A DNA stretch of 64,000 bases from Myceligenerans pegani (GTDB lineage: Bacteria > Actinomycetota > Actinomycetes > Actinomycetales > Cellulomonadaceae), in contig NZ_JADBGR010000104.1 in assembly GCF_014892515.1 (NCBI RefSeq), positions 47,826 to 111,825 of the forward strand, written 5' to 3'. The position numbers were made by a program, and so were the translations under genes. Positions 29,439 to 49,435 of the stretch are shown in pieces (positions within the stretch are counted from its first letter, which is position 1; every line of letters starts with the position of its first letter). The notes beneath the pieces were generated by a model. The model was not told where the DNA came from. It did not search any database and was given only the letters and a program-made list of their open reading frames with translations.

Positions 29439-29481
29439 TGTTTGCCCGCCCGGTCAGCCCCTGACGATGATGCCACCGTCC
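29439..29481 (+). promoter_or_regulatory. PHO-box-like direct repeats, copy A
   Basis: GTTTGCCCGCC (29440-29450) followed by GGTCAGCCCC (29452-29461) approximates the 11-bp direct repeats bound by actinobacterial PhoP. The next bases (GATGATGCCACCGTCC) are shared with copy C at 43106-43147. The site lies about 30 bp before the VanY-like start. Confidence 0.4.
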
Positions 29482-29512
29482 GAACCGTTGCCGGGGAGAA
29501 AGGTGGCGTCCG

Positions 29513-31114
29513 ATGACCCGCACCAGTGCCGACCGCGTGCCGGGCCGTGCTCGGCGGTCGTCGCGAGGCCTGCCCCGGCCCGCCACCCCACGGGCTCGGC
29601 TCGGCCGGGCAGCCCTGGCGGGCGGACTGAGCCTCGTCGTGATCGTGTCCACGGCGTCCCAGCCGTCGCCGGCCGCGCTCGCCGTGGCGTTCCCGGCCGG
29701 CTCGGCGCACGCCACGACGTCGGCGAGCGGGACGTTCCCGGCGGCCCCGCCGAAGGAGCAGGCGCCGTTGCGGCCGGTGGCGCACGTTCCGGCCGAGGCG
29801 CACGCCCCGGCGACCGGGCCCGAGGGGGCGGCGCTCGCACAGGTGCGGGCCGTGCTGGAGCATGCCGAACGCAGGATCGAGAAGCAGGGACGGCGTGCCG
29901 ATCCCCGAGTGGTCCAGGCGGCCGGTGAGCTCGGCATGCTGTACTCCACCTTCCGGGCGCAGCAGGCCGCGGCGGACCGACCTCACGACGACGGTCGCCA
30001 CGCCGGCGGCCACGCCGAGGCGGGCCGGCACGACCATGGCGACCCGGTCGAGCTCGACGACCTGGTGCGAGCAGCCAAGCGCCTGGCCGGCCTGCTGGAC
30101 CGCGCGACACGGCGCGGCGACGACGGGGGAGCGGACCGGCGATCGGGCGCGCTGCGGACGAGTGTGATCGACGCGGTCCACCGGTACGCCGAGGAGGCGG
30201 CACGGTACGCGAACGGCCGCATTCCCGCGGACGTGCTGTGCGAACCGGACTTCGCGGCCGGCCACCTGCTGCGGTGCGACGCCGCCGCGGCGCTGGAAGG
30301 GCTGAACCGGAGGTTCGAGAAGCGTTTCGGGAAGCCGATCCCGATCACCGACTCCTACCGGTCGTACGCGGCGCAGGTCCGGCTCAAGAAGGTCAAGCCC
30401 TACCTGGCCGCGGTCCCGGGGACGTCGAACCACGGCTGGGGACTCGCGGTGGACCTGGGGGCACCGATCAACACCGGCCGCAGCGCCGAGTACCGGTGGC
30501 TGCGCGAGCACGGCCCGGCGTACGGGTGGGACAACCCGTCCTGGGCGCGCCTCGACGGGGTCAAGCCCGAGCCCTGGCACTTCGAGTTCTTCGCGTCCGC
30601 GATCGTGCTCGGCGGCCTGCTCGGCGACGCGACGACGGCCGGCGACGCCGCCCGTGCGCGGGACCGGCGGGGTGACGACGACACGAAGTCGTCCGGAGCC
30701 GGGGAGCCGGCCCGGAAGGACGACGCGGACGGCAGGCCGGCGCGGGACACGCAGAGAGACGACGAGGACGAGGCATCGCGACCGGCCGAGCCCGACGACG
30801 CGCCGTCGGGCGGCAGCGGGGACGGAGACACGGACGGCGGTGCCGATGGAACCGGGCCGCGCGACCCGGGGACCGCCGTCGGAACCCCGTCCCCGTCGCC
30901 CTCTCCGTCGCCGTCCCCGGACCCGACGCCCACCGACCCGACGACGACCCCATCCGACGACGACGCCACCTCCGATCCGACCGGATCGCCGACGCCGGAA
31001 CCCAGCGACGAGCCGACGACCGGTCCCACCGAGACGGCGAGCGAGTCTCCGGACGAGGCGGCGGCCGACACGACCACGAGCTCCGCCGGCGCCGGCGAGA
31101 TCACCGGGGGGTGA
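29513..31114 (+). CDS. Secreted VanY/M15-type D-Ala-D-Ala carboxypeptidase-like protein
   Basis: This 533-residue protein has an N-terminal hydrophobic export segment (about 30-55), a helical region, and an M15 peptidase domain (about 240-360) with all zinc ligands: ITDSYRSYAAQ, GTSNHGWGLAVDLG (His, Asp) and EPWHFEF (catalytic Glu region, His). The last 165 residues are low-complexity Asp/Pro/Ser/Thr-rich, with a PSP repeat, as in cell-wall-spanning stalks. No C-terminal anchor follows. It heads the pst operon, 37 bp before pstC. It may trim peptidoglycan where the neighbouring surface proteins cross the wall. Confidence 0.85.
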   Translation: MTRTSADRVPGRARRSSRGLPRPATPRARLGRAALAGGLSLVVIVSTASQPSPAALAVAFPAGSAHATTSASGTFPAAPPKEQAPLRPVAHVPAEAHAPATGPEGAALAQVRAVLEHAERRIEKQGRRADPRVVQAAGELGMLYSTFRAQQAAADRPHDDGRHAGGHAEAGRHDHGDPVELDDLVRAAKRLAGLLDRATRRGDDGGADRRSGALRTSVIDAVHRYAEEAARYANGRIPADVLCEPDFAAGHLLRCDAAAALEGLNRRFEKRFGKPIPITDSYRSYAAQVRLKKVKPYLAAVPGTSNHGWGLAVDLGAPINTGRSAEYRWLREHGPAYGWDNPSWARLDGVKPEPWHFEFFASAIVLGGLLGDATTAGDAARARDRRGDDDTKSSGAGEPARKDDADGRPARDTQRDDEDEASRPAEPDDAPSGGSGDGDTDGGADGTGPRDPGTAVGTPSPSPSPSPSPDPTPTDPTTTPSDDDATSDPTGSPTPEPSDEPTTGPTETASESPDEAAADTTTSSAGAGEITGG

Positions 31115-31151
31115 CGGGACCCATGTCCGAGCCCGGCAGGAGGACCGCACG

Positions 31152-32273
31152 ATGAGTACCGACGCCGACGAGAACTCCGGGGAACCGCGTGGCGGCTCAG
31201 CCGGTGTCCCGGGGGATGTCGCGGTCGCGGAACTGGAGAGACAGCGCAGGGAACTGCGCGAGCTCGGCCTGGAGACGTCTCCCGCCCCGCGTGACGCCCG
31301 CGTGGACCCGACCCGTCCGCTCGTGAGCCGCCGCGGTTGGCAGGACAACGTCTTCCGTGTGGCGGCCCACTCCGGCGGCACCCTGGTGCTCCTGATCATG
31401 ACCCTCGTGGGCGTGTTCCTGCTGTGGCGCGGCTCGCAGGCGATCGACGCCGCCGGCTGGGACTTCGTCACGGAGCAGACCTTCGAGCCGGACAACGGCC
31501 GGTTCGGCATCGCGGCGGTCCTGTTCGGGACGATCGTCATCGGCGTGATCGCCCTGAGCGTCGCGGTCCCGCTGGCACTGCTCACCGCCACCTACATCTC
31601 CGAGTACGCCCCGCAAGGGATCAAGCGGTTCCTGATCGGTGTCGTCGACCTGATGGCCGCGATCCCGAGCGTCGTGTACGGGCTGTGGGGGGCCTTCTGG
31701 CTCGACGGGAACCTGCTGCCAGTGTCGGAGTGGATAAGTACCAACTTCGGGTGGATCCCCATCTTCGCCGTCCCGGCGTTCGACCCGGACGACCCGCTGG
31801 CCACGCCCACGGTGTTCACGGCGACGGCGTTCCTGGCCGGGCTCGTCGTCGCGATGATGGTCGCGCCGATCTCCACGTCGATCATGCGCGAGGTGTTCGA
31901 CCAGGCGCCGGTGGGGGAGCGCGAAGGTGCCCTGGCACTAGGCGCGAGCAGGTGGGGCGTCATCCGGAACGTCGTCTACCCGTTCGGGGCCGGCGGCATC
32001 ATCGGCGGCAGCATGCTGGGCCTCGGCCGCGCGCTCGGCGAGACCATCGCCGTCTTCATGGTGATCAGCCCGATCTACTACATCAACTGGCACATCCTCG
32101 GCACGGGCGGCAACTCGATCAGCGCGCTGATCGCCCTGCGCCACGGCGAGGCCAGCGACTTCGAGGTCTCCGCTCTCATGGCCGCCGGACTGGTGCTGTT
32201 CCTCATCACGATGCTCGTCAACTTCGTCGCCGGCTTCATCATCCAGCGCTCGCGTTCGGGCGCCGCGAGCTGA
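31152..32273 (+). CDS. pstC: Phosphate ABC transporter permease PstC
   Basis: The 373-residue permease has a 75-residue charged cytoplasmic N-terminus and then six helices. PstC signatures: YISEYAPQGIKRFLIGVVDLMAAIPSVVYGLWG, the EAA-like loop GEREGALALGASRWGVIRNVVYPFG and GRALGETIAVFMVI. ATG 31152 follows the VanY-like stop by 37 bp with AGGAGG upstream. It pairs with PstA downstream. The ATPase gene pstB is not adjacent but lies at 46441-47268. Confidence 0.95.
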   Translation: MSTDADENSGEPRGGSAGVPGDVAVAELERQRRELRELGLETSPAPRDARVDPTRPLVSRRGWQDNVFRVAAHSGGTLVLLIMTLVGVFLLWRGSQAIDAAGWDFVTEQTFEPDNGRFGIAAVLFGTIVIGVIALSVAVPLALLTATYISEYAPQGIKRFLIGVVDLMAAIPSVVYGLWGAFWLDGNLLPVSEWISTNFGWIPIFAVPAFDPDDPLATPTVFTATAFLAGLVVAMMVAPISTSIMREVFDQAPVGEREGALALGASRWGVIRNVVYPFGAGGIIGGSMLGLGRALGETIAVFMVISPIYYINWHILGTGGNSISALIALRHGEASDFEVSALMAAGLVLFLITMLVNFVAGFIIQRSRSGAAS

Positions 32274-32289
32274 CCAGGAGCGAGAGATC

Positions 32290-33639
32290 ATGACCGCCAC
32301 CGAGACACCCGCCGGTACACCCCGGACCCCGCGCCGTGCGGACCGGCCGGGCAGGTACACCCGCACTCACCTGCCGGGGCGGGACGGCCGCGTCGCCCCG
32401 CCCCCGCCTGAGACCCGGCGGGTCCTGTCGGGCCTGCAGCGGAAGGACGTGCTACGCGTCGTCGGCGCGGCGGCGGCCGGCATCGCGACGACGGAGTGGC
32501 TGTTCACCCAGGTGCTGCCCGTCCAGGGCGCGCTCCCGTTCGTGCTGATCTCGTACGTGTTCTTCCTGGGCTACTTCGTGATCCTGATCAGCTTCGACGA
32601 CGATCGAGTCACCATCAAGGACCGCGTCGCGGGCGTCGTCATCCACTCGGGCGCCATCGTGCTGCTGCTGGCCCTGGCGGTGGTCGTTTCCTTCGCGCTC
32701 GCCGAGGGGGCACCGGCGTTCCTGAGGTTGAACTTCTGGACGCAGGACCTGTCGCTCGCCGGCCCGCTGGACCCGCTGACCGTCGGCGGCATGGTGCACG
32801 CCGCGGTCGGGACGCTGTTCATGATCACGCTGGCCCTGGCGATCTCGATCCCGCTCGGCGTGCTGACGGCGGTCTGCCTGGCGGAGTTCCCCAGCCCGTT
32901 CACGCGCATCGTCCGCACGGTGACCGAGGCGATGACGGCCTTGCCGTCCATCCTGTGCGGCCTGTTCATCCTGGCCACCTACGTGCTGATGTTCGGCCTG
33001 CCGCAGTCCGGGTTCGCCGCGGCGCTGGCGATCACGATCATGATCCTGCCGATCATCGTCCGGTCCGCCGACGTCGTCCTGCGCCTGGTGCCGCAGACGC
33101 TCAAGGAGGCGTCGTTCGCGATGGGCGCCAGTCACTGGGCGACGATCTGGCACGTGGTGCTGCCGACCAGCCGGTCGGGGCTGGCGACCGCGATCGTGCT
33201 CGGCACCGCGCGCGGCATCGGCGAGACCAGCCCGATCATGCTCGTCGCCGGGTACACCACCTACATGAACTGGAACCCGTTCACCGGGCCGATGGTCTCG
33301 CTGCCTTACGCGACGTTCACGCTCGTCCAGAGCCCGGAGCCGACGCAGATCGCGCGCGGGTTCGGCGCCGCGGCCGTGCTCATGGTGATGGTCTTCGGGC
33401 TGTTCGCCCTCGCGCGCGTGATCGGCGGCAAGGGCGCGGGACAGCTCAGCTCCCGCGGCGCAGCCCGCGCGCGTCGCGCCTCGGCGCGGCTCGCGGCGCG
33501 CTTCGGTCCCGTCGGCCTGGCTGCGGCAGGCGGGACGACGGCGGCCGAGCGCGAGGCGGCCGATGTGCATGCCATCAACGGCGGCCCGCATCCACAGAGA
33601 CCCACCGATACCCCGACCGACAAGGAGACCGGACGATGA
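32290..33639 (+). CDS. pstA: Phosphate ABC transporter permease PstA
   Basis: The 449-residue permease is longer than usual. It has two extra helices before the core (about 50-110), six core helices, and a basic 60-residue tail. Signatures: VTEAMTALPSILCGLFI, the EAA loop KEASFAMGASHWATIWHVVLPTSR and GTARGIGETSPIML. It starts 16 bp after pstC with AGGAGCGAGAG and overlaps pstS by ATGA. Confidence 0.95.
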   Translation: MTATETPAGTPRTPRRADRPGRYTRTHLPGRDGRVAPPPPETRRVLSGLQRKDVLRVVGAAAAGIATTEWLFTQVLPVQGALPFVLISYVFFLGYFVILISFDDDRVTIKDRVAGVVIHSGAIVLLLALAVVVSFALAEGAPAFLRLNFWTQDLSLAGPLDPLTVGGMVHAAVGTLFMITLALAISIPLGVLTAVCLAEFPSPFTRIVRTVTEAMTALPSILCGLFILATYVLMFGLPQSGFAAALAITIMILPIIVRSADVVLRLVPQTLKEASFAMGASHWATIWHVVLPTSRSGLATAIVLGTARGIGETSPIMLVAGYTTYMNWNPFTGPMVSLPYATFTLVQSPEPTQIARGFGAAAVLMVMVFGLFALARVIGGKGAGQLSSRGAARARRASARLAARFGPVGLAAAGGTTAAEREAADVHAINGGPHPQRPTDTPTDKETGR

Positions 33640-35471
33640 CCACCATCACCGCGCAGCGCGCCCGGGTCGCGCGGGCACTCGTCGTCGTGCTGGGAATCGT
33701 GTTCGTGGTCCTGAGCGCGGTGGTCCCTGGGAACACGGCCACGGGAGCGCCGGCGGCCGAGCGGCCCGACGCCGCGCGGGCCGCTGTGCCCGCCGCCGTC
33801 GGGAATGTGCATGCCCCGATCAAGGGGGAAGGTTCCACCTGGTCGGCGAACGCACTGGACCAGTGGATCCGCAACGTGTGGAGCAACTATCAGTGGAAGA
33901 TCACCTACAACCAGCAGGGCTCCACCGCGGGGCGCAACGCGTTCGCCAACGGCACCGCCGACTTCGGCGTCAGCGAGATCCCGTACGCCGTCAGCAACTC
34001 CAACGAGCAGGACCTGCGACCCCAGCGCGACTTCGCCTACATGCCCATCGTGGCCGGTGGCACGGCGTTCATGTACAACCTGCAAATCGGTGGCAAGCGG
34101 GTCACCAACCTGCGGCTGTCGGGCAACACCATCGCCAAGATCTTCACGGCCGAGATCACTCGCTGGAACGACCCGCAGATCAAGAAAGACAACCCGCTCC
34201 TGGCGCTGCCGGCCATCCCGATCGTGCCGGTCGTGCGATCCGACGGGTCCGGCGCGACGGCGCAGTTCTCGATCTGGATGCGGCAGGAGCAGACGGCGCT
34301 CTGGGACGCGTACTGCGAGAAGGCCGGCCGTCCGATGGTGAACGGGCACTGCGGCATCACGTCCAACTACCCGGTGGTGCCTGGGACGGGCTTCGTGTCT
34401 CGCGCCAAGTCGAACGGCGTGGCCAGCTACGTGGCGCAGTCCCACGCGGTGGGGGCCATCACGTTCGTCGAGTACTCCTACGCGCTGAACGCGAAATTTC
34501 CGGTGGCGAAGATGCTCAACGAGTCCGGCTACTACACGGAGCCGACGGCGCAGAACGTCGCGGTCGCGCTGCTGCGGGCCAAGATCAACCAGGACAAGAG
34601 CTCGCCGGACTACCTCACACAGAACCTCGAGGACGTGTACCGGTTCGGTGACCGGCGCGTGTACCCGCTGTCCAGCTACTCGTACATCATCCTGCCGACC
34701 TCGCGGGACGCCGGATTCACGCTGGACAAGGGACTCACCCTGGCCGACTTCGGCGCGTACTTCCTGTGCGAGGGGCAGCAGCAGGCCGACGTGCTCGGCT
34801 ACTCACCCCTGCCGATCAACCTGGTCCAGGCCGGCCAGCAGCAGATCCGGAAGATCCCGGGTGGCGACCCGGTGATCAAGGGCATCCGCGACTGCAACAA
34901 CCCGACGTTCTCGCCCGACGGCGGCAACCGGCTCGCCCAGACCGCGCCCTACCCGCCGGCGTGCGACCGGCAGGGCTCCACGCAGTGCCTCACGGGTACG
35001 GGCGGGGCCAAGGACACGTCGACGTCTCCGTCCGGGGGTGGCAGCAGTGATGGGCCGGACGACGCGAACGGCGGTTCGGGCGGCCCGGGCGATGCCGGCT
35101 CCGGCGGCCGCGACCCGGGCGACTCGGACGGCCCCGACGGTTCCGACGATGGTCCGGGCGGCTCGGGTGACGGCCCCGGCGGCGGCGCCGAAGGAGACGG
35201 GAACGGCGCTACCGAAGACGACCTCGTCGACGGGGGAGGAGACGCGGAGGTGGTGGACGACGCGGCCGTGGTCGAGCTCGTGTCCGCCACTCCGCAGTCG
35301 ATTCCCCTGGCTGAGTCCGGGATCGTGCCGCGACTCACGATGGGCGGCTTGGGCCTGGCGATGATCGCCGGCGCGGTGCTGCCGCCGCTGCTCGGCAGGC
35401 GCGCCCGGCCGGTGCTACCCGGGCCGGCCGGGCTCGGGCGGCGCGGGCTTGCAGGAGGCGCCGCGTCGTGA
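33636..35471 (+). CDS. pstS: PstS phosphate-binding protein with C-terminal membrane anchor
   Basis: The 611-residue protein starts at ATG 33636. A signal peptide (ARALVVVLGIVFVVLSAVVPG) leads into a PstS-type binding domain (about 55-440: KGEGSTWSANALDQWIRN, YNQQGSTAGRNAF, TRWNDPQI, VVRSDGSGATAQFSIW). No lipobox is seen. Instead a Gly/Asp/Ser-rich stalk of about 130 residues leads to a single hydrophobic segment (GLGLAMIAGAVLPPLLG, about 568-585) and an Arg-rich tail. The arrangement resembles a sortase signal without LPXTG. It therefore stays on the membrane on a long stalk, unlike ordinary lipoprotein PstS. Confidence 0.92.
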   Translation: MTTITAQRARVARALVVVLGIVFVVLSAVVPGNTATGAPAAERPDAARAAVPAAVGNVHAPIKGEGSTWSANALDQWIRNVWSNYQWKITYNQQGSTAGRNAFANGTADFGVSEIPYAVSNSNEQDLRPQRDFAYMPIVAGGTAFMYNLQIGGKRVTNLRLSGNTIAKIFTAEITRWNDPQIKKDNPLLALPAIPIVPVVRSDGSGATAQFSIWMRQEQTALWDAYCEKAGRPMVNGHCGITSNYPVVPGTGFVSRAKSNGVASYVAQSHAVGAITFVEYSYALNAKFPVAKMLNESGYYTEPTAQNVAVALLRAKINQDKSSPDYLTQNLEDVYRFGDRRVYPLSSYSYIILPTSRDAGFTLDKGLTLADFGAYFLCEGQQQADVLGYSPLPINLVQAGQQQIRKIPGGDPVIKGIRDCNNPTFSPDGGNRLAQTAPYPPACDRQGSTQCLTGTGGAKDTSTSPSGGGSSDGPDDANGGSGGPGDAGSGGRDPGDSDGPDGSDDGPGGSGDGPGGGAEGDGNGATEDDLVDGGGDAEVVDDAAVVELVSATPQSIPLAESGIVPRLTMGGLGLAMIAGAVLPPLLGRRARPVLPGPAGLGRRGLAGGAAS

Positions 35472-35898: not shown

Positions 35899-38610
35899 AT
35901 GAAGCTCCGCAGCCGCACGATCAGTGCGCTCGGCATGGTCGTCGCCCTGGCATCGGCCGGCGGCCTCGTGGCGATGTCCGCACCGCCGGACGCACGGGCC
36001 GCGGGCGAGACCGACTCGGCGGTGACGCTGAAGTGGGCGGGCGGCAACGGCGACCTGCAGCAGTACCAGCCGGACCGCTCGCGCATGGTCGACGACGCCG
36101 ACGGGTCGGGTCACTGGGACGACTTCAAGGACCTCGAGGTCACGGTCTCCCAGACCGAGGACCTCATCGACCAGGTCGTCACGGTCACCGCCTCCGGGAT
36201 GGCCCCGACGGCGCGGGGAGGAACCGGAAACTCCAACTTTCTGCAACTCATGCAGTGCTGGGGTGACCCGCTGTCGGAGGACTTCAACAAGTCGTGCCAG
36301 TACGGCGGTTACTCAAATATAGAGGTCGGCGGAACAGGCGGTAGCCACCCGGTCATCGACGCGACGCATCGTGGCTACTACCCGGAGCACCAGGTCAAGT
36401 TCCAGGCGGTGACCGGTCAGGAGAACGAGACCGTCGAGATCCCCACCGGCCCCGACACGAGCTACACCAGCCGCGGTCTCGGCGCTTTTTTCGAGGCGTC
36501 CGCCTCCAACGAGCAGCCCTTCGTCCCGGTGGCCGGTGACGGCACGGCCAGGTACAACATGGTGATGCAGTCCGGCGCCGCGCAGCCGTACCTGGGCTGT
36601 GGCAACCCGGAGACCGCGGGGGAGCGGTGCTGGCTCGTGGTCGTCCCCCGGGGCACGCGCTCGGGCACACCCGCCGACGGCTCGGACACGGGTCGTCCCG
36701 CCGACGGCACGCTCTGTGGCAGGCCCGGCATGGGGCCCAGCAACGTCTTCGGCTCGGCGACAACCTGGCAGAACGGCTCTCCTCTGTCCGCGAACTGCAC
36801 CTTCTGGGACAACCGGATGGTGTTCCCGCTCGACTTCCGCAACCCGTTCCGGAGCTGTCCTGCCGGTGCGGCGGAGCGGAGGGTGGCCGGCAGCGAGCTG
36901 ATCGCCGACGCGATGAGTTCGTGGCAGACCGCGCTGTGCGCCGGTGAGGACGGCGCGACCTTCTCCCTCAACACCAACAGCGGCACCCTCACCCGCACCC
37001 AGCTCCTGACCGGGGCGGTCGACTTCGCCGCCGTGGGGCTTCCCCTGACGCCCGACACGATCGGCACCGCGAGCCCGGAGCAGCTCGCCGCGGCCGATCT
37101 GGGCTACGCGCCGCTCGCGAACACGGCGCTGACGATCGGCTTCGTGGCCCAGGACGAGCAGGGGAAGGCCTACACGAACCTGCGTCTCACCCCACGCCTG
37201 GTCGCCAAGCTCCTCACCCAGTCCTACAAGTGGCACGTCCCCAATGTGCTGTTCGGCGCGGGCGAACCGGTGGGCGAGTCCTATGACGTGCTCGGGAAGC
37301 TTGCGGTCGTCGACGACGAGGAGTGGGCCGCGCTTGGCAACCCCACCGACTTCGGCGCGTGGGCCAAGGTGACCTGGATAGTGTCCGGGCCGCGCGGCGA
37401 CGACGCGATCCGGCTCCTGTGGCAGTACGTGCAGGCGGACGCCGACGCCCGGGCGTTCCTCCGGGGCGAGCCGGATCCGTGGGGCAACACGGTCAACCCC
37501 TACTACCTCCCGGCCAGGCACCCCAGGGCCGCGGGAGGCGGGTACGACGTGGACCTGTCCGAAGAGCCTCTCGACATGTTCCCCAAGGCCGACCAGACGC
37601 TCTTCCCGGACAAGGCGACCGCGACCGACGAGTACAAGGACGAGCAGATCGACTCGGACTCCTACAGCCCCTACGCGGAGGACCTCGAGGACAACGCGGT
37701 CCGCGTCGCGAAGGCGGACAGCAGGCGGGTGGAGTCGTGGGACAAGTACTACTACATCGGGGTCGGGATCCCGCCAGGCCGCTGGGCTCGGGACGCACCT
37801 CCGTCGCCGGACCGCCCGAGGCTCATGATGGGCCCGGTGATGACGACGTCGGCGGAGCTGTACGGCCTGAGTACGGCGAGTCTCGCGCTCCCGCTGGACG
37901 AGACCACGGCCGCCGAGAACGTCGCCGATGCCCGTCAGTTCGTGGAAGCTGACGAGGAGTCGATGAGCCGGGCGGTCGCCGCCGTGCCGGTGGACGAGAC
38001 CGGCGTCGGCGTCGTCGACGTGACCGACCTGCCCGACGGCGCCTACCCGCTCACCACGACGGTCCACGCGGCGGTCGATCTGCGCGAGGGGCGCCTGGAC
38101 CCGCAGGCCCGCACCGAGTACGCCCACCTGCTGACATACGCGGCCACCGACGGCAACGTCATCACCGGCGATCGCGGTGGCCTCCCCGAGGGCTACGTAC
38201 CCCTGACCGCCGAGCAGCAGGCGGCGGCGCTCGACCTGGCCGATCGGCTGCTCGCACCACCCGGAGCGGACCCTGGTCCGGAAAGAACCGGCTCGGACGG
38301 CGACGGTGACGGCGGGAGCGACAGCCCCGGAGACTCCGCGGACCAGGGAGGTGATGGTCGCCCCGGCGATGCCGGCGCGACCGTGCCTGTCCCGGTGGAC
38401 GAGGACGAATCGGTTGCCGATGATCCCCCGTCCGACCCCGGAGCCGATGGAGGCCCCGGTGGACCCACGACGACTCAGAACGAGGCGTCGGCGACAGAGG
38501 ACACGGCGCCACTGGCCGCGTCGGTCGCGCTGGGCGGCACGCTCGTGGCGGGCCTGGCCGGGATGATCGGCGCGCCCTTCCTCATGCGACGCCGCGAGCT
38601 CACCGGTTGA
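35899..38610 (+). CDS. Large membrane-anchored surface protein, periplasmic-binding-protein-like
   Basis: The start is ATG 35899 behind CGGAGGA, with signal peptide MKLRSRTISALGMVVALASAGG. The product has 903 residues. The ectodomain (about 40-790) contains segments like substrate-binding proteins (ELIADAMSSWQTALC, LTGAVDFAAVGLPLTPD, LTPRLVAKLLTQSYKW, GPRGDDAIRLLWQYVQ) and eight or more Cys. A Gly/Asp/Ser-rich stalk (about 795-870), a hydrophobic segment (LAASVALGGTLVAGLAGMIGAPF) and an RRREL tail follow, with no LPXTG. Same design as the PstS here. I do not recognise a characterised relative. It is probably a ligand-capturing or scaffold component of the surface complex. Confidence 0.75.
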   Translation: MKLRSRTISALGMVVALASAGGLVAMSAPPDARAAGETDSAVTLKWAGGNGDLQQYQPDRSRMVDDADGSGHWDDFKDLEVTVSQTEDLIDQVVTVTASGMAPTARGGTGNSNFLQLMQCWGDPLSEDFNKSCQYGGYSNIEVGGTGGSHPVIDATHRGYYPEHQVKFQAVTGQENETVEIPTGPDTSYTSRGLGAFFEASASNEQPFVPVAGDGTARYNMVMQSGAAQPYLGCGNPETAGERCWLVVVPRGTRSGTPADGSDTGRPADGTLCGRPGMGPSNVFGSATTWQNGSPLSANCTFWDNRMVFPLDFRNPFRSCPAGAAERRVAGSELIADAMSSWQTALCAGEDGATFSLNTNSGTLTRTQLLTGAVDFAAVGLPLTPDTIGTASPEQLAAADLGYAPLANTALTIGFVAQDEQGKAYTNLRLTPRLVAKLLTQSYKWHVPNVLFGAGEPVGESYDVLGKLAVVDDEEWAALGNPTDFGAWAKVTWIVSGPRGDDAIRLLWQYVQADADARAFLRGEPDPWGNTVNPYYLPARHPRAAGGGYDVDLSEEPLDMFPKADQTLFPDKATATDEYKDEQIDSDSYSPYAEDLEDNAVRVAKADSRRVESWDKYYYIGVGIPPGRWARDAPPSPDRPRLMMGPVMTTSAELYGLSTASLALPLDETTAAENVADARQFVEADEESMSRAVAAVPVDETGVGVVDVTDLPDGAYPLTTTVHAAVDLREGRLDPQARTEYAHLLTYAATDGNVITGDRGGLPEGYVPLTAEQQAAALDLADRLLAPPGADPGPERTGSDGDGDGGSDSPGDSADQGGDGRPGDAGATVPVPVDEDESVADDPPSDPGADGGPGGPTTTQNEASATEDTAPLAASVALGGTLVAGLAGMIGAPFLMRRRELTG

Positions 38611-38648: not shown

Positions 38649-38749
38649 CGTGCGGGCAAATTCCCCACCCGCGCGCGGAGGCCCCCCACCCGAGCAGCGA
38701 ACCCAGGGTGAGGGGCCGTGTCCCGACGGACACAGGTCGCTCGCGACCT
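38649..38749 (+). ncRNA. Four-hairpin structured 5' leader, copy 1
   Basis: Four consecutive stems: CGTGCGGG/CCCGCGCG (38649-38656, 38668-38675); GGCCCCCCACCC/GGGTGAGGGGCC (38680-38691, 38706-38717); GTGTCC/GGACAC (38718-38723, 38728-38733); AGGTCG/CGACCT (38734-38739, 38744-38749). The start codon of the next gene follows 32 bp later. Copy 2 at 41561-41662 keeps all four stems with base changes that preserve or improve pairing. Confidence 0.7.
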
Positions 38750-38780
38750 TTGAGGGGAAACCCTAGTAGGAAGGCATGCA

Positions 38781-40125: not shown

Positions 40126-41499
40126 ATGCGCATCACATCGGTCCGCCGTGCGGGCCTCGCTCTGGCCGCCGCTCTGGCGGTCACCTTCAGCGGCCTGGTC
40201 GCCGCACCTGCCCAGGCGCTGGCGCCGGATCTGGACCCGGACAACCGACTGGGCGATCTCACACTTGACGTCACCGGCGGTGCGATCTCCTGGGCCGGTG
40301 GCCCACAGCGGCTCACCACGGAGACGGGCTGCCCCGAGGGGTTTCGCCGTTCCTCCCGCGCGTTCATCATCTGGCCGGACGGTACCTGGGTAGTAAGCGC
40401 CTCGCAGTTCGCCGCGACGGTCTTCGTGGCAGCCTCGGAAGGTTCGGGCCTGGACGGCCAGGCGATCGACCGCCAGAACCTGTCGGAGACGATCACGTAT
40501 CAGCGGCACGCGTCCAAGTGGGGCGCGGGTGGGTCCGGGGGGATTCCCACGGTCGCCTTCGACGGGCACAGCGGCGTCGCGACTTACGTGGTCACCTGTG
40601 ATCCGGGGGATGCTCCGACCGGGACCTTCCCGACGAACGCGTCCGGCGTGGGCGACTCGAAGTACTTCTCCGTCGACATCCTGATCGACTGGAACGACGG
40701 TGGCGTCACCGGGTCAGGCACCTGGGAGATCGCCGGCCCGGTCGAGAAGGTCGACACCACCCTCGAGCTCGACCCGACCGCCGGGAACGACGGCTCGGTG
40801 AACCTCACGGCCACCGTCGACCCGCCCGCAGCGACCGGCTCGGTGACGTTCACGAACGTTGGCACCGGCGCCACGGTCGGCACCGCGGACCTGACCGACG
40901 GGACAGCGACAGTGAATGTCTCCGACCTCGAGCCCGACACCCAGTACACCTTCCGCGCAGAGTACGCGGGTGACACCCTGCACAACGCGTCCACGTCCAA
41001 CGACGCCGTCGTCACGACCGTCGGCGAACCGGTGCCGCCGCAGGACACGGAGATCACGGTGACCATCCCGGCCGCGGCGTCGGGTCTCCGGCTCACCGTC
41101 ACCCCCGGTGGCGTCGCGCTCGGCGAGGCAACCCAGGTCAGCTCGGCCTTCGAGGCGACGGGGGAGCTCGGTCAGGTCACCGTGACCGACGACCGGGAGA
41201 CCCGTACGGCGTGGACACTCAACGGGCAGGCGAGCGATTTCGCCAGGTCCGGCGGCTCCGGCGCCATCCCGGCCTCCGCCCTCGGCTGGGAGCCACAGCT
41301 CACCGGTGGAACGAACGCCGGTACGGCCGGCCCCGCCGTCGCGCCGGGTACCGGCCTGGCCGCTCCGCGGACGCTCGCGTCGGCGACCGCCGACGTCACC
41401 ACCGCCCGGACGACCGTCGCCGCGGACCTGACCCTGCGTGCGCCGCAGGACACCCCCGCGGGCGAGTACACCTCCACCTTGACGCTCACCCTCATCTGA
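40126..41499 (+). CDS. WxL-like surface protein with Ig-like repeat
   Basis: The start is ATG 40126 behind GAAAGGA. The 457-residue product has a signal peptide ending at PAQA, an N-terminal domain (about 35-205, DNRLGDLTLDVTGGAISWAG) shared with the protein at 41695, one Ig-like beta domain (about 212-318, TGSVTFTNVGTGATVGTADL), and a C-terminal domain (about 322-457) that resembles WxL domains: AWTLNGQASDF carries the W-x-L motif and the end is YTSTLTLTLI, where the usual second Trp is Leu. WxL domains bind the cell wall non-covalently in Firmicutes. A DUF916-type gene, the usual WxL partner, lies 1.7 kb downstream. Confidence 0.7.
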   Translation: MRITSVRRAGLALAAALAVTFSGLVAAPAQALAPDLDPDNRLGDLTLDVTGGAISWAGGPQRLTTETGCPEGFRRSSRAFIIWPDGTWVVSASQFAATVFVAASEGSGLDGQAIDRQNLSETITYQRHASKWGAGGSGGIPTVAFDGHSGVATYVVTCDPGDAPTGTFPTNASGVGDSKYFSVDILIDWNDGGVTGSGTWEIAGPVEKVDTTLELDPTAGNDGSVNLTATVDPPAATGSVTFTNVGTGATVGTADLTDGTATVNVSDLEPDTQYTFRAEYAGDTLHNASTSNDAVVTTVGEPVPPQDTEITVTIPAAASGLRLTVTPGGVALGEATQVSSAFEATGELGQVTVTDDRETRTAWTLNGQASDFARSGGSGAIPASALGWEPQLTGGTNAGTAGPAVAPGTGLAAPRTLASATADVTTARTTVAADLTLRAPQDTPAGEYTSTLTLTLI

Positions 41500-41560: not shown

Positions 41561-41662
41561 CGTGCGGGTGCCGTCCCCCGCCCGCACGTGGAGGCCCCTC
41601 ACCCGGGGAGTCATGCCAGGGTGAGGGGCCGTGCCCAGCAGGGCACAGGTCGTTCGTGACCT
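41561..41662 (+). ncRNA. Four-hairpin structured 5' leader, copy 2
   Basis: Stems: CGTGCGGG/CCCGCACG (41561-41568, 41581-41588); GGCCCCTCACCC/GGGTGAGGGGCC (41593-41604, 41619-41630); GTGCCC/GGGCAC (41631-41636, 41641-41646); AGGTCG/TGACCT (41647-41652, 41657-41662). Relative to copy 1, stem 1 turns a T-G pair into T-A, stem 2 repairs a C-A mismatch to T-A, stem 3 swaps T-A for C-G, and stem 4 replaces G-C with G-T. The ATG follows 32 bp later. Confidence 0.7.
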
Positions 41663-41694
41663 ATGGGGTGAATTCTACGACAAAGGCAGGATTC

Positions 41695-42558
41695 ATGTCT
41701 CACACCACTCTGAGCCGGGTGGCCGCGGGCCTCGCGGCTTCGCTGACCATCGTGCTCGGTGCCGCCTTGGCTGCCCCGGCCGCGCAAGCCGTGAACCCGG
41801 TGCTCGACGCCGACAACCGCCTGGGTGGCATCACCCTTGACAAGACCTCCGGCGCCATCTCCGGCTCCGGCGGCCCTCAGTCCCTGACCACCGAGGCGGG
41901 GTGCCCCGAGGGCTACCGCGGTTCCTCCCGGGTCCTGTTCGTCTGGCCCGACGGGACGTGGCCCGCAGCCAACTCGTCGTCCGACCTCGGCCTCCCGGCC
42001 CTGGTCAAGGTCGCCGGGTCCCCGATCGAGGGATCCGGACTCGACGGCGAGCCGATCAACCGGACGGGTACCTCGGCGTCGCGCTGGGCCGTCTACGGCT
42101 TCCCCGCCGACCGCTTCGACGGCCGCAGCGGTGTCGCCACCTACGTGATCACCTGCGACCCCGGTGACGCCCCGACGACCACCTACCCGACCGCCGCCTC
42201 GGGCGTCGGTGCCTCGAAGTACTTCTCCGTGGACCTCCGCCTGAACTGGAACGACGAGACCAACACGGGCACCTGGGAGCACGTCAAGGAGGCCACCACC
42301 ACGACGCTGACGGCCGACGAGCACTGGCGGTCGGCCACGCTCACCGCCGAGGTCGGCCCGGACTCCGCGACCGGCACGGTGACGTTCGAGAACGTCCGCA
42401 CGGGCGAGACCGTCGGCACCGGCACGGTGACCGACGGCGTCGCCTCGGTCACGGTGAAGGGCCTCAAGCCGTGGAAGACGTACACCTTCCGGGCGCACTA
42501 CACGGGCGACGCCCAGCACGACGGCTCCACCTCGAACAAGGTCCGCGTGAACTGCTGA
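41695..42558 (+). CDS. Secreted Ig-like surface protein, paralogue of the WxL-like protein
   Basis: The 287-residue protein has a signal peptide (MSHTTLSRVAAGLAASLTIVLG, cleavage near AAQA). The N-terminal domain is close to that of the protein at 40126 (LDADNRLGGITLDKTSGAIS; TTEAGCPEGYRGSSR; FDGRSGVATYVITCDPGDAP; SKYFSVDLRLNWND), and one Ig-like domain follows (ATGTVTFENVRTGETVGTG; KTYTFRAHYTGDAQHDGSTSN). It stops there, without the WxL-like domain, so it must be held by a partner or released. It has its own leader (copy 2). The pair probably arose by tandem duplication. Confidence 0.8.
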   Translation: MSHTTLSRVAAGLAASLTIVLGAALAAPAAQAVNPVLDADNRLGGITLDKTSGAISGSGGPQSLTTEAGCPEGYRGSSRVLFVWPDGTWPAANSSSDLGLPALVKVAGSPIEGSGLDGEPINRTGTSASRWAVYGFPADRFDGRSGVATYVITCDPGDAPTTTYPTAASGVGASKYFSVDLRLNWNDETNTGTWEHVKEATTTTLTADEHWRSATLTAEVGPDSATGTVTFENVRTGETVGTGTVTDGVASVTVKGLKPWKTYTFRAHYTGDAQHDGSTSNKVRVNC

Positions 42559-43229: not shown

Positions 43230-44531
43230 ATGATCGTCCGAAGGACTCTCGCCGGCGGCACACTTGCCGCCGGGGTGTTCGCCGCCCTCCTCGGTGCGGC
43301 CGGGCCCGCGGATGCCGCGGCCGCGCACGCGCCCGTCACCGAGGTCGCCGCACGGGCCGGCGTCGCGTCCGTCGTCGTACCGTCCGCCGTCGTACCGACC
43401 GGCGTCGCGTCCGCCGACGACCGCGAGGTCACCTGGAGCGTCCAGCCCTCCGGCCCCGACGGCCGGGACGGCCGTACCGAGCTCGCCTACGACGTCGCGC
43501 CCGGCACCACCATCAGCGACTGGGTGTCGGTCTCCAACTTCTCGGACCGCCGGGCGTCGTTCCGCGTCTACGGGGCCGACGCGACCACCGACTACGACAC
43601 CGGCGCCTTCACGCTGATCGCCGCCGACCAGGCATCGACCGATCTGGGGTCATGGACGTCGGTCGACTCCGGCGCGGCCACCTGCCCGGACACGGACGAC
43701 GACGCCGAGGCCGCCTGCGCGGCCGAGCTCGGCGTCGTCGTGCGACTCGAACCCGGCGCCCGCGCCGACATCCCGTTCACGATCACCGTGCCGCACGACG
43801 CGACGCCCGGCGACCACGCCGCCGGCATCGTGGCCTCCTTCCGGTCCGGGGCCGACGACGGCGAGGGATCCGCCGTGCAGCTGGAGCAGCGGGTCGGTAC
43901 CCGCATCTACCTGCGGGTCGACGGCGAGACGACGCCCGCGCTCGACGTCACCGGCGTGGTGGCCGGGTTCGACGGAGCGGCGAACCCCTTCGGCGCCGGC
44001 ACCGCGACCGTCGGGTTCGACCTCACCAACACCGGCAACACGCGGATCTCCGGCGAGCCGGAGGTTCGCGTCAGCGGGCCGTTCGGCATCGGCCTGGGTT
44101 CGATCGAGACCGAGCCGGTGGAGAACCTGGTGCCCGGCGGCACCGCGCACGTCTCCGCCGAGGTGCCGGGCGTGGCGCCCCTGCTCCTGCTGTTCGCGGA
44201 CGTGACCGTGACCCCGGCCGCCGCGGCGAGCCCCGGCGGGGGAGCCGACGACGACGCACTGCCCGCACCCGTCAGGGCGTCGGCACAGGCCTGGGCGGTG
44301 CCCTGGCCGCTCGCGGGCGTCGTCGCCCTCCTCGCGGGCGGGACCTGGGCGGTCGTGGCGTGGCGCCGACGGTCGCGGCGGCTCCTGGGCGAGGAACTCG
44401 CCGCCTGGACCGAGCAGGTCCGGGCCGAGACGCTCGCGGAGGCACGGTCCGACGCTCCCGCACCGACCACCCCCGGGCAGCGGTCCGGTGCCGCCCCGGC
44501 CCCCGACCACGAGAGCGAGGCCCTGCGATGA
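43230..44531 (+). CDS. DUF916-type (WxL-interacting) membrane protein
   Basis: The 433-residue protein has a signal peptide (RRTLAGGTLAAGVFAALLGAAG), a beta-sandwich domain with the DUF916 pattern (TWSVQPSG, YDVAPGTTISDWVSVSNFSDRRASFRVYGAD, PFTITVPHDATPGDHAAGIVASF), a second Ig-like domain (VGFDLTNTGNTRISGEPEVRV), one C-terminal helix (PWPLAGVVALLAGGTWAVVAW) and a basic cytoplasmic tail. In Firmicutes such proteins bind WxL proteins and peptidoglycan. The WxL-like protein upstream is the obvious partner. It is the first gene of a tightly coupled set of five ending in the PASTA kinase. Confidence 0.8.
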   Translation: MIVRRTLAGGTLAAGVFAALLGAAGPADAAAAHAPVTEVAARAGVASVVVPSAVVPTGVASADDREVTWSVQPSGPDGRDGRTELAYDVAPGTTISDWVSVSNFSDRRASFRVYGADATTDYDTGAFTLIAADQASTDLGSWTSVDSGAATCPDTDDDAEAACAAELGVVVRLEPGARADIPFTITVPHDATPGDHAAGIVASFRSGADDGEGSAVQLEQRVGTRIYLRVDGETTPALDVTGVVAGFDGAANPFGAGTATVGFDLTNTGNTRISGEPEVRVSGPFGIGLGSIETEPVENLVPGGTAHVSAEVPGVAPLLLLFADVTVTPAAAASPGGGADDDALPAPVRASAQAWAVPWPLAGVVALLAGGTWAVVAWRRRSRRLLGEELAAWTEQVRAETLAEARSDAPAPTTPGQRSGAAPAPDHESEALR

Positions 44532-45397
44532 GAGTCCGACACCTCCGGCTCGCCGGCGTGCTCCTGGCCGGGGCGGCGCTCGCGCTCGGCCCGGCCGGCG
44601 CCGGGCACGCCGCCGACGCCGAGGACGGCGAGACGGACACCGGGATCAGCGTGACCATCCCGAGCACGGCGCCAACGGACGACCCCACCGGCGACCCCAC
44701 GGGCGGTCCGACCGGCGACCCCACCAGGGGACCGGGTGCGGGACCGGACCCGTCCGACGGCCCCGGAGGCGGGAACGGCGCGGGCGGAGGCACCGGCACG
44801 GGCGGCGCCCCGGGAGGCGGCGACCCCGGGGGCCCGGGTTCCCCCGGCGACACGCCGGGTGGCGGATCCGGCGACCCCACGGGCGGCCCGGACGCTCCCG
44901 GCGACGGCGGCACGACGGATCCGGAGGAATGCGAGCCCGCCGAGCCGGCGGTGCCCCAGGAGCCGGCCACGGACGGCGACGACGCGACACTGGACGACGA
45001 CGTCCACCTGGCGGGCGACGAGGTCGTCGCGACCGGTAACGGGTTCGGCGACCGCGAGCGGGTGCAGGCCGTGCTGTTCACCGAGCCGCAGGTCGTCCGG
45101 ACCGTCCGCGCGGACGCGAAGGGCGTGGTCGACGCCGCCCTCGAGATCCCGGACGAGACCCCGCCCGGCCCGCGCGCTCTCCAGCTGACGGGCTGGTGCG
45201 GGCAGATCGCGCTCGCGGAGGTCCTCGTGGGCTCGCCCGGCGGCGAGGCGACGGGGCTGAGCATTCCGGCCTGGGCCTGGTGGACCGGCGGCGGCGTCGG
45301 ACTCGCCGGCCTGGGCGCGGGCGGCTGGTACGTGCTGCGCCTGATGCGGGCGCCGGGCGCGGGCCTGCCGGTGGGCGACGCGGGGGTGGCGGCCTGA
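44528..45397 (+). CDS. Low-complexity membrane-anchored surface protein
   Basis: The 289-residue protein overlaps the previous stop (ATGA). It has a signal peptide (VLLAGAALALGPAGAGHA), about 105 residues of Gly/Pro/Asp/Thr repeats (DPTGDPTGGPTGDPT; GGGTGTGGAPGGG), a small Cys-containing beta domain (about 150-245, DEVVATGNGFGDRERVQAVLF; ALQLTGWCGQIALAEVLV) and a C-terminal helix (WWTGGGVGLAGLGAGGWYVL) with a short tail. It resembles the small anchored partner in WxL operons, without LPXTG. No family is recognised. It is probably a structural part of the surface complex. Confidence 0.65.
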   Translation: MRVRHLRLAGVLLAGAALALGPAGAGHAADAEDGETDTGISVTIPSTAPTDDPTGDPTGGPTGDPTRGPGAGPDPSDGPGGGNGAGGGTGTGGAPGGGDPGGPGSPGDTPGGGSGDPTGGPDAPGDGGTTDPEECEPAEPAVPQEPATDGDDATLDDDVHLAGDEVVATGNGFGDRERVQAVLFTEPQVVRTVRADAKGVVDAALEIPDETPPGPRALQLTGWCGQIALAEVLVGSPGGEATGLSIPAWAWWTGGGVGLAGLGAGGWYVLRLMRAPGAGLPVGDAGVAA

Positions 45398-46440: not shown

Positions 46441-47268
46441 ATGACAGTGGAGCAAACGATCGCAGAGCCGGCCGCGGGCCCGCCGCCCGCCGGTCTCTCG
46501 GTGCTGGAGGCGCGGAACGTGTCCGCGTGGTTCGGCTCGCACAAGGTGCTGGAACGCGTGTCGCTCACCATGCCCGCCGGGCAGGTGACCGCCCTGATCG
46601 GGCCGTCGGGCTGCGGCAAGTCGACGTTCCTGCGCATCCTCAACCGGATGCACGAACTCGTCCCCATCGCCGCGCTCGCCGGCGAGGTGCGCCTGGACGG
46701 CGACGACATCTACGACCGCCGCAAGAAGATCCAGGACGCCCGCAAGGACATCGGCATGGTGTTCCAGAAGCCCAACCCGTTCCCCGCGATGTCGATCTAC
46801 GACAACGTCGTGGCAGGACTGAAGCTCACCGGCGTGCGGGCCACCCGGGACGAGAAGGACGAACTCGTCGAGCGATCCCTCACCTCCGCAGGGCTCTGGA
46901 ACGAGGTGAAGGACCGGCTCGCGCAGCCCGGCGGCGGACTCTCCGGCGGACAGCAACAGCGGCTGTGCATCGCGCGCTCGCTCGCCGTGCGGCCCAAGGT
47001 GCTGCTGATGGACGAGCCGTGCTCCGCGCTCGACCCGACGTCCACCCGGGTCATCGAGGAGACCATGACCGAACTGCAGAAGGAGGTGACGATCGTCATC
47101 GTCACCCACAACATGCAGCAGGCCCAGCGCGTCTCGCAGCAGTGCGCGTTCTTCCTCGCGTCGCAGGGCACGCCGGGCGCCATCGTGGAACACGGCGACA
47201 CCGACGCGATGTTCTCCGAGCCGCAGGACGAGCGCACCTATGACTACGTCAACGGCCGGTTCGGATGA
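46441..47268 (+). CDS. pstB: Phosphate ABC transporter ATP-binding protein PstB
   Basis: The 275-residue ATPase carries Walker [10 protein letters not shown], the PstB-specific [24 protein letters not shown], signature [16 protein letters not shown], Walker [14 protein letters not shown] and switch VTHNMQQA. It ends with the PstB-type YDYVNGRFG. It sits 12 bp after the pseudo-sortase gene and 12.8 kb from pstA, its membrane partner, so the pst transporter genes are split by the surface-protein block. Confidence 0.95.
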
Positions 47269-47284
47269 CGAAGCACCCCGCACG

Positions 47285-49435
47285 ATGAGCGACGACGGCG
47301 GTCCGACGCCGGCTGCGGGGGAGGACGTCCCGGACCAGACGGCACCGGACGGAGCGACCGGCCCGGTGCCCGACGACGCCCTGCTCGACCACGCCCTGTT
47401 CGGCGGGCGGTACGTGCTCGGGGACCTGCTCGGCGTGGGCGGGACCGCGTCGGTGTTCGCCGCCGAGGACATCGGCGCGGACCCCACCCCGAGCGAGGAC
47501 CGCCCGGTGATGCCGGCCGGTGAGCATGCCCCGCCGTCGGCCCTGCGCAGCCCCGACACGTCGTCGCCCCCGGGACGTCCGGTCGCGCTGAAGATCCTGC
47601 ACCCGCACCTGAGTGCCGACGCGGCCTCCCGCGACGCCTTCCTGGCCGAGGCCCGTGCCGCGCAGGAACTGCGGCACCCGAACATCGCCGCGGTCCGTGC
47701 GTCCGGCGTCCAGGAAGCGGCGGGGGTCGTGCTCGCGTGGATCGCCCTCGACCTGGTCGACGGCGGGAGCGTCGGCGAGCGCGTCGAGTCCACCGGGCCG
47801 CTGCCCCCGAGCGAGGCGGCGGCGGTGCTCGACGGCGTGCTGGCGGCGCTCGCCGTCGCGCACGGTGTGCGACTGGTGCATCGCGACGTGTCACCCGCGA
47901 ACGTGCTGCTGCACGGTGCCCGGCCGGGGGAGGCGCTGCGGGCGGAGCACGTGCGCCTCGTCGACTTCGGCCTGGCCGACGCCGCCGGGCGCACCGCCGT
48001 CGGCCGCGGGGTGCTGCGGGCCGGGGAGGACACACTGCGCGACGGGCCCGGACCCGACGGCTCGGCGGTCACGGTCGTGCTCGGCGCGGCGCAGGGCAGG
48101 ACCGTCGCGGCCGCGGGCGCCGGGATCCGGGCCGGCGGCGGGGAGGCGGGCGCCGCGCGGACCGTCGTCGGCAATCCCCAGTTCATGTCGCCCGAGCAGG
48201 CGCAGGGCAGGCCGGTCCGCCCGGCGGGCGACCTGTACCAGGCGGGCGCGCTGCTGTACTACCTGCTCACGGGCCGTCCGCCCTACCCCAGGGGCACGGC
48301 CGCGCAGGTCCTGGACGCGCACGTGTCCGCGCCGCCGCCGGTGCCGTCGGCCCTGGTCCCGGGCGCCCGCGTGTTCGACCGGGTGGTGACGCGCGCCATG
48401 CACAAGACGCCCGTGCGGCGATTTCGCGACGCGGGCGAGATGCGGGCGGCGCTTGCCGAGGCGGTCGAGCGGATGGGCCCGGCGGGCGGGGTCGCGCCGG
48501 GGTCCGGTGGCGCGGCGGACGCCGGGGGGCCGGCGGGGGCGGGCGGGGAGACGGGAGTCCGCGAGCACGTCGTCGGTGGGGACGTCGTCACCGACGACTC
48601 ACCGCACGACGCGGACGCGGCGTCGGCCGGGGCCGCGGGGAACGCGACCGGTGCCGGTCCGCGCAGGGCGGGAGACCTCGAGTACCTGGCCCCGGTGCCC
48701 GAGTCCCAGCAGGTGTCCGCCGCGGTGCCGCGCGACGGTGTCGTGGGCGTGGGCGTCGTCGTGGGCGGCCTGCTCGTCGCCGGGCTGGCGATCTGGGCCG
48801 CCGTCTTCGCCCCCGGGCTGCCGCAGGCCGCCACGACGCCGTCGCCGAGTGCGAGCGTCCTCGCCTCGACCCCGGCGCCCTCCCGCGCGGCGAGTCCGTC
48901 GCCGTCCTCGTCCTCGGAGCCGTCGCCCTCCCCGAGTGCGCCCGCCACCGCGTCGCCGCCGGCCACGCCGTCGCCGTCCGCGACGCCCATCTCGACCGGC
49001 GCTCCGTCGCCCCCGGCACGGGCCCGGGTGCGGGTGCCCGTGCTGGACGGAACGCTGGTCGCGGCGCAGGCGGCGCTCCGCGACGCGGAGCTGGTGCTCG
49101 GCGACGTGGCGCGGGCGGACTCGCCGGAGCCCGCGGGCACGGTGCTGCGCCAGCGGCCGGCGGCCGGCCGGTTCGTGTCGCCCGGGGCCGAGGTGGACGT
49201 CACGGCGGCGAGCGGACGCAACGTCGTGCCCGCGGTCGCCGGCATGACGGTGGGTGCGGCCGTCGCGGAGGTCGAGTCCGCGGGCTTCGAGGCCGTCCTG
49301 GAGCACCCGGACGTACCGCCGACCGCCCCCGCTTCCGGCACGACGCCCATCCCGGGCAAGCCGCTCCGCCTGGGCGTCGCCGTGACGATCCTGGTCGGCG
49401 AACCCGGCCCGACGCCGTCGACCTCCCCGTCGTGA
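47285..49435 (+). CDS. Membrane Ser/Thr protein kinase with PASTA domains
   Basis: Start ATG 47285 (an in-frame ATG at 47240 overlaps pstB); 716 residues. The kinase domain (about 40-395) has GVGGTASVFAAED, the ATP Lys in VALKIL (about 101), HRDVSPANVLL (about 198), VDFGLAD (about 228) and MSPEQAQG (about 301). It contains two unusual insertions: about 40 residues before the VALK strand and about 60 Gly/Ala-rich residues in the activation segment. HRDVSPxN has Ser in place of Lys, as in some bacterial kinases. One helix (about 490-510), a Ser/Pro-rich stretch and two PASTA domains follow outside the cell, which bind muropeptides. It probably couples wall state to the surface complex. Confidence 0.88.
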   Translation: MSDDGGPTPAAGEDVPDQTAPDGATGPVPDDALLDHALFGGRYVLGDLLGVGGTASVFAAEDIGADPTPSEDRPVMPAGEHAPPSALRSPDTSSPPGRPVALKILHPHLSADAASRDAFLAEARAAQELRHPNIAAVRASGVQEAAGVVLAWIALDLVDGGSVGERVESTGPLPPSEAAAVLDGVLAALAVAHGVRLVHRDVSPANVLLHGARPGEALRAEHVRLVDFGLADAAGRTAVGRGVLRAGEDTLRDGPGPDGSAVTVVLGAAQGRTVAAAGAGIRAGGGEAGAARTVVGNPQFMSPEQAQGRPVRPAGDLYQAGALLYYLLTGRPPYPRGTAAQVLDAHVSAPPPVPSALVPGARVFDRVVTRAMHKTPVRRFRDAGEMRAALAEAVERMGPAGGVAPGSGGAADAGGPAGAGGETGVREHVVGGDVVTDDSPHDADAASAGAAGNATGAGPRRAGDLEYLAPVPESQQVSAAVPRDGVVGVGVVVGGLLVAGLAIWAAVFAPGLPQAATTPSPSASVLASTPAPSRAASPSPSSSSEPSPSPSAPATASPPATPSPSATPISTGAPSPPARARVRVPVLDGTLVAAQAALRDAELVLGDVARADSPEPAGTVLRQRPAAGRFVSPGAEVDVTAASGRNVVPAVAGMTVGAAVAEVESAGFEAVLEHPDVPPTAPASGTTPIPGKPLRLGVAVTILVGEPGPTPSTSPS

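Follow-up and report, generated by a model that had tools for sequence, protein, structure and literature searches.

The window analysed here, a stretch of 64,000 nucleotides from Myceligenerans pegani (contig NZ_JADBGR010000104.1, positions 47,826 to 111,825 of the forward strand), carries a set of phosphate transporter (pst) genes interleaved with genes for surface proteins. A sequence-only reading had described this set as a pst operon split by surface-protein genes on one strand, and our search of 20 kb of the window by open reading frames and profiles found every named gene in its place, on the plus strand throughout. The permease genes pstC and pstA and the pstS gene, whose product we call S, are followed by genes encoding a 903-residue binding-protein-like protein (BP), a secreted PstS-like protein (S2), the paralogues W1 and W2, a DUF916/WxLIP-type protein (D), a low-complexity protein and a sortase-like protein (T), and then by pstB (Table 1). 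Several of these genes are separated by intergenic gaps of about 170 to 670 bases. Because the genome holds two further pst-like sets elsewhere, one at G000:C45 (an operon with two PstS-like genes) and one at C94, the window set is an additional Pst set. A tRNA-Leu called by ARAGORN at 45226-45316 was taken as false; it sits inside the low-complexity gene and has no Rfam match.

Recurrence of the gene set across actinobacteria

With BP alone as the query, matches were found in 12 of the 149 genomes of the order, M. pegani included. In a phylum sample, nine of the 396 genomes gave a match (M. pegani again included), seven of them spanning most of BP. A species-level scan by BP alignment, with one genome per species, gave 479 stretches, of which 449 encode BP relatives; the best 80 of these 449 were read and, together with 11 neighbourhoods, make up the 91 loci that were searched with profiles of all 13 window proteins. 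Removal of three repeats (L047, L048 and L067) left 88 loci for counting, and near-identical pairs such as L057/L097 were kept. A locus is called full when pstC, pstA, S, BP, S2, T and pstB are all called. By this rule 55 of the 88 loci have the full core, 36 of the 55 keep the exact order pstC-pstA-S-BP-S2-T-pstB, and the counted genes lie on a single strand in 53. At least one core gene was uncalled in 33 loci, many of which are short or run up against the edge of a contig; in three the stretch continues, yet one core gene is missing (S2 in L032, pstA in L093 and pstB in L102).

The genera with relatives include Promicromonospora, Microbacterium, Cryobacterium, Curtobacterium, Cellulomonas, Aeromicrobium, Streptomyces, Kitasatospora, Actinoplanes and Jiangella. 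Outside the class, five genomes (L115, L116 and L118-L120) have the genes in a changed order, yet pstC, pstA, pstB, S, BP, S2 and T are still together; S2 of L118 matches weakly and its frame is truncated where the stretch ends, and the BP candidate of L120 scores slightly better with the S profile than with the BP profile. No match was found among the 72,556 records of a plasmid collection, and no protein family recurs in the flanks of more than eight of the 88 loci. Because the arrangement recurs in relatives, it is not a product of chance, and from this recurrence the cluster looks like a real, widespread gene set of actinobacteria. The surface and pst genes make up a single conserved unit in actinobacteria, which supports this part of the earlier proposal, and the refuting case named with it, an association found only in this strain, fails. 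Of the genes named for the co-occurrence search suggested at that time, BP, the pseudo-sortase and pstB belong to the core, and D is present in 25 of the 55 full loci. As a separate observation, parts of two clusters apparently adjoin in a Streptomyces locus (L105, positions 1-4012 and 14917-17521), D, T and pstB of one lying ahead of the other.

The two flanking genes that had been counted with the system fared differently. The PASTA kinase does follow pstB in the window, but a match to it occurs in 14 of the 55 full loci and none in the other 41, so that it is best regarded as an optional neighbour. VanY is ruled out as a part of the cluster, its profile having matched only one of the 91 scanned loci (L031). 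Divergent from vanY, on the minus strand at 27146-29397, lie genes that by eye resemble those of a two-component histidine kinase and regulator, and kinases similar by eye to this one stand near five other loci (L032, L035, L039, L065 and L080).

Table 1. Genes and candidate RNA elements of the M. pegani cluster, in window coordinates
Feature	Position	Strand	Evidence or remark
VanY-type peptidase	29513-31114	+	precedes pstC
pstC, variant-clade permease	31152-32273	+	TIGR02138, 245.4 bits against a cut-off of 196.45
pstA	32290-33639	+	TIGR00974, 190.4 bits, E 3e-56, about 3 bits below the cut-off of 193.45
S (pstS), PstS with C-terminal transmembrane anchor	33636-35471	+	PF12849, E 1e-35
BP, 903 residues, putative anchored pseudo-PstS with extra N-terminal domain	35899-38610	+	hhalign, Foldseek
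Candidate RNA element, copy 1, hairpin type, 5' of S2	38663-38759 (model core 38675-38735)	+	
S2, secreted PstS-like protein	38781-39953	+	TIGR02136, E 1e-10, far below cut-off
W1, Ig-like with WxL-like C-terminal domain	40126-41499	+	Big_3_5, E 7e-12
Candidate RNA element, copy 2, 5' of W2	41576-41672 (model core 41588-41648)	+	
W2, 287 residues, W1 paralogue without WxL-like domain	41695-42558	+	53% identity to W1 residues 1-296
D, DUF916/WxLIP-type anchored protein	43230-44531	+	PF06030, E 1e-4, 22.7 bits against a cut-off of 27.3
Low-complexity anchored protein	44528-45397	+	sequence; profile matches in 25 loci
T, pseudo-sortase, class E-like fold, three predicted membrane helices	45397-46428	+	PF04203, E 2e-14
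pstB, ATPase	46441-47268	+	PF00005, E 1e-35; Walker A, signature and Walker B by eye
PASTA Ser/Thr kinase, optional neighbour	47240 or 47285 to 49435	+	PF00069, E 6e-23; PASTA, E 2e-11

Transporter subunits, binding proteins and a pseudo-sortase

By sequence, PstC, PstA and PstB belong to the working type. The PstC tree has 104 rows, and the 81 from the cluster are set apart from the rest by a branch that has 100/100 support and is present in 100% of 200 bootstrap trees. Canonical or other loci supplied the remaining 23 rows, some of which probably represent PstA or different permeases, on very long branches that drew a program warning. The cluster permease is thus placed as a separate Pst lineage. 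In each of the 17 genomes that match BP, two of which are cut by a contig end, two or more pstC-pstA pairs are present, as they are in the two genomes with partial BP hits, and in G112 and G070 the variant pair lies on a contig other than that of BP. Pairwise distances correlate at 0.67 between BP and PstC and at 0.71 between PstC and PstA, within a span of 0.29-0.71 for all pairs of core proteins.

The pocket of S was read by alignment, with the residue roles of E. coli PstS as reference. Ser96, Arg201 and Gly206 are unchanged throughout a set of 78 S proteins, of which 77 also have Ser205; the equivalent of Thr10 is Thr or Ser, that of Phe11 is Trp, and that of Thr141 is Thr in 42, Ser in 20, Ala in 15 and Glu in one. 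Window S reaches 186.5 bits with TIGR00975, against a cut-off of 205; it carries a membrane helix at its C terminus and lacks a lipobox Cys at its N terminus. We conclude that S is a predicted PstS that keeps most pocket residues and is anchored in the membrane at its C terminus. In S2 (82 sequences), Gly51, Ser52, Thr54, Arg130 and Ser132 are invariant, GSGTR is present in most, and GSDT and RSS motifs are conserved; the invariant residues may form a pocket. A tail motif common to S and BP, which under a strict pattern occurs in 52 of 78 S and 20 of 48 BP proteins, is no more than suggestive.

BP combines a PstS fold with an additional domain. Its residues 325-786 align with the S family (hhalign probability 98, E 6.5e-14), and the BP model has a predicted local distance difference test score (pLDDT) of 83 and a predicted template modelling score (pTM) of 0.83. 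When this model was submitted to Foldseek, all 35 hits at E ≤0.001 were phosphate-binding proteins (best E 5e-11), the best four with template modelling scores by target of 0.70-0.80 and root mean square deviations of 5-7 Å. At the column of the phosphate-binding arginine, set by profile alignment and not by superposed structure, none of the 48 BP sequences has Arg, and the acidic position is not kept either. The N-terminal domain, which has four invariant Cys, was modelled with pLDDT 86.5 and pTM 0.88, and this model found no match in the PDB (best E 0.02). BP is therefore described here as a putative anchored pseudo-PstS that has lost the phosphate-binding Arg and gained an N-terminal domain. 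Short BP-like frames of 647 and 613 residues, with most of the N-terminal domain missing, were seen in L119 and L120, both outside the class.

T had been called a catalytically empty sortase, and this description holds. Aligned with the only other PF04203 match of the genome, which served as a control, T has Arg180 at the position of the catalytic His and Ala239 at that of the Cys. Across 72 T proteins, Arg replaces the His in 71 and Lys in one, the domain has no Cys, and none of the proteins is predicted to be catalytic. The motif GHRRD..PGQ is largely conserved, the C terminus reads P-N-x-x in 69 of the 72, and the match to NF033747 (class E sortases) is below cut-off. Taken together, these features identify T as a predicted catalytically empty sortase fold held by several membrane helices.

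Putative wall-link proteins, a candidate RNA element and PHO-box-like repeats

The sequence-only reading had taken W1 for a WxL-like protein with a paralogue and D for a DUF916-type protein. The paralogy stands with a refinement, in that W2 corresponds to W1 minus the WxL-like C-terminal domain. The WxL/DUF916 assignment is visible as homology in relatives, but not above the Pfam cut-offs in the window itself: the WxL profile PF13731 matches nine of 31 W family members, with E values up to 1 counted (best 2.8e-7) and W1 not among them, and finds nothing in the M. pegani genome at E 0.1, while PF06030 matches 25 of 27 D family members at E ≤0.1, window D included (best 9e-10). The second domain DUF3324 was found in none of the 27 D proteins at E ≤0.1. 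More than 91% of 938 WxL sequences are reported to come from Firmicutes (PMC9772566); WxLIP is described in PMC10599100. In our loci W scores above 100 bits in 23 of the 55 full loci, and D is present in all 23.

Thirty full loci are without D. In nine of them a protein with an LAxTG/LPxTG tail was found by pattern, as also in three loci with D, and 18 others of the 30 have an S2 frame of at least 574 residues. The immunoglobulin (Ig) domain Big_3_5 was detected in all five long S2 proteins scanned and in two of four tail proteins from loci without D, and not in the single tail protein scanned from a locus with D. We infer three alternative ways of placing the Ig-bearing part on the wall. The earlier suggestion of non-covalent assembly fits the WxL type but has to be limited to it, because of the LAxTG/LPxTG-tailed proteins in those nine loci.

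A repeat of 97 nt stands both in the gap before S2 and in that before W2, its two copies being 79% identical, and no third copy was found in the M. pegani genome. Folding z-scores are -4.6 for copy 2 and -2.2 for copy 1. A covariance model built on six copies, from the window, L031, L034 and L037, matches 14 other loci of the 87 searched at E ≤0.1, each time 3' of the BP end; L050, L058 and L075 are among the element-bearing loci. Thirteen of the 14 matches end before S2, the S2 start being unresolved in L039, and L031 carries a second copy before W2, as in the window. On a 20-row alignment fitted to the model, 12 of 20 pairs are changed on both sides, which none of 500 shuffles reaches; these counts lean upward because the rows include three reverse-strand hits of the same palindromes. 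Single weak matches (29-40 bits) also occur in the genomes of five of 18 other relatives, among them G535 (39.9 bits), which has no BP, so that low-scoring matches are not specific by score alone and the matches of 28-40 bits within loci rest on their position in the gap. No Rfam family matches the element in the window or in six loci tested. The covarying two-hairpin RNA is a candidate for a new RNA motif.

The PHO-box unit is given as GTTCACC, in a box built of two 11-base units, in PMC4415409. We scored pairs of such units out of 14 in the 400 bases upstream of PstC in 71 loci. Pairs reaching at least 12/14 were found in 17 of the 71 loci, as compared to three of 710 random windows and three of 710 shuffles (Fisher 3e-16), and pairs at 11/14 in 30 of the 71, as compared to 28 of 710 and 17 of 710, respectively. 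In the window, where eight stretches were tested, two 11/14 pairs, at 29381 (shuffle P 0.01) and 43048 (P 0.045), were set aside as weak candidates, the former lying inside the start of the divergent kinase frame.

Interpretation and comparison with known systems

The explanation that we favour, with modest confidence, is that the cluster encodes an additional actinobacterial Pst-type ATP-binding cassette (ABC) importer that probably serves when phosphate is limiting and has its binding proteins fastened to membrane and wall. T and BP would form a non-catalytic scaffold around the permease, and S2 and the Ig-like proteins would stand further out, held to peptidoglycan by WxL plus WxLIP (as in the window), by an LAxTG/LPxTG protein or by an S2 that itself bears Ig domains. 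Captured at the wall, phosphate would pass to S and on to PstCA for ATP-driven import, and the RNA element between BP and S2 would probably adjust how much S2 is made in proportion to the anchored parts. In favour of this reading stand the fixed content, order and strand of the core, the content largely retained where the order changes, the single PstC clade and the further pstC-pstA pair in 17 of 17 genomes, the PHO-box-like pairs of relatives, the pocket residues of S, the residues lost from T and from BP with its PstS fold, the strong W matches that come only with D, the Ig domains of the long S2 proteins and the BP-PstC and PstC-PstA distance correlations. A phosphate role is plausible; the ligand, the hand-over and the assembly are putative. 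That these loci represent a phylum-wide class of wall-tethered ABC importers, where a scaffold made of dead sortase and dead PstS joins the membrane transporter, across the thick wall, to secreted binding proteins and a dedicated RNA sets the ratio of the parts, is a more tentative proposal that we would place somewhat short of probable.

Several observations weigh against the favoured importer. Window D and W1 score under Pfam cut-offs, loci that have no D, mostly those of Streptomyces relatives, also give weaker W-profile matches (32-84 bits), and we saw none of the three routes to the wall in three of the 55 full loci. The spread is patchy, at 17 of 121 genomes of the family and the nine of 396 in the phylum sample (M. 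pegani counted in both), and none of the three other genomes of the genus has the cluster. The distance correlations fall to 0.29 (S2-PstB) and are confounded by common descent. As to the phosphate link drawn in the sequence-only reading, it agrees with the PHO-box-like repeats of relatives and with the pocket residues of S, but 54 of the 71 relatives score below 12/14 and the eight stretches from the window's gaps hold no convincing PHO box. Finally, the ligand of S may differ, because the Asp56 equivalent is Glu in 75 of 78 S proteins and Asp in three (seven additional S proteins have Asp in three), window S has Ala at the Thr141 position, and S of L118 carries Gln at the Arg position.

The same machine could accordingly serve another ligand, such as a phosphorylated compound, a phosphonate or another oxyanion from the wall or the environment, and have only the scaffold in common with Pst; we regard this as unlikely, if the most serious rival. 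The family-wide exchange of Asp for Glu speaks for it, and the further pstC-pstA pair in all 17 genomes means that plain phosphate uptake may already be served. The remaining pocket positions of S are kept, however, PHO boxes are enriched upstream of pstC in relatives, and the flanks, with no widely recurrent family, give nothing for it. Less probable again is a surface structure for sensing or adhesion that is produced when phosphate is low, in which the PstS-like domains would sense or attach and import would be secondary. Two main parts, BP and T, are without active residues, the PASTA kinase is matched in a minority of full loci, and Firmicutes WxL/WxLIP proteins have been proposed (PMC10599100) to attach cells to hosts, all of which would suit such a structure; yet the PstB motifs appear intact, most full loci give no kinase match, and the transporter subunits remain with the surface genes after rearrangement. 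The thought that two unrelated modules adjoin by chance or by a common promoter only, to which the wide gaps in the window and the varying neighbourhoods beyond the core might lend themselves, is very improbable, being already contradicted by the recurrence and fixed order, the content kept after rearrangement and the single permease clade.

A wall-tethered Pst-type importer would address how Gram-positive bacteria keep binding proteins working across a thick wall, with a defined gene set in genera that have cultured species (Streptomyces, Cellulomonas, Microbacterium and Promicromonospora). If true, it would mean that a sortase fold has been kept for binding and not for catalysis, extend WxL/WxLIP biology to Actinomycetota and nutrient uptake, and suggest what a second or further Pst system is for in some genomes. 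Among the matches listed for the open PMC literature, no title describes a linkage of pst and surface-protein genes, and a term search of a review of phosphate transport in Streptomyces and related genera (PMC7866108) found none of the terms 'second pst', 'two pst' and 'sortase'.

Compared with the PstSCAB importer, the cluster is alike in having PstC, PstA and PstB with conserved motifs, a predicted PstS with most pocket residues and, in some relatives, PHO-box-like sites; it differs in the addition of BP, S2 and T, in its own PstC clade, in the mostly Glu equivalent of Asp56, and in a window PstS with a C-terminal membrane helix and without the N-terminal lipobox Cys. With the WxL/csc clusters of Firmicutes (PMC9772566, PMC10599100) it has in common a WxL-like domain and a DUF916/WxLIP protein encoded side by side, whereas here there is no DUF3324 match and no small/large WxL pair in the window, and the genes lie inside a pst operon, in Actinomycetota. 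T resembles class E sortases in fold and sequence (PF04203, and NF033747 at its sub-threshold score), but all 72 T proteins are without the catalytic His and Cys, and T has the largely conserved GHRRD..PGQ motif and extra membrane helices. S, S2 and BP belong to the family of PstS/PtsS_2 binding proteins, from which BP departs in the loss of the binding Arg and in an N-terminal domain without a PDB match.

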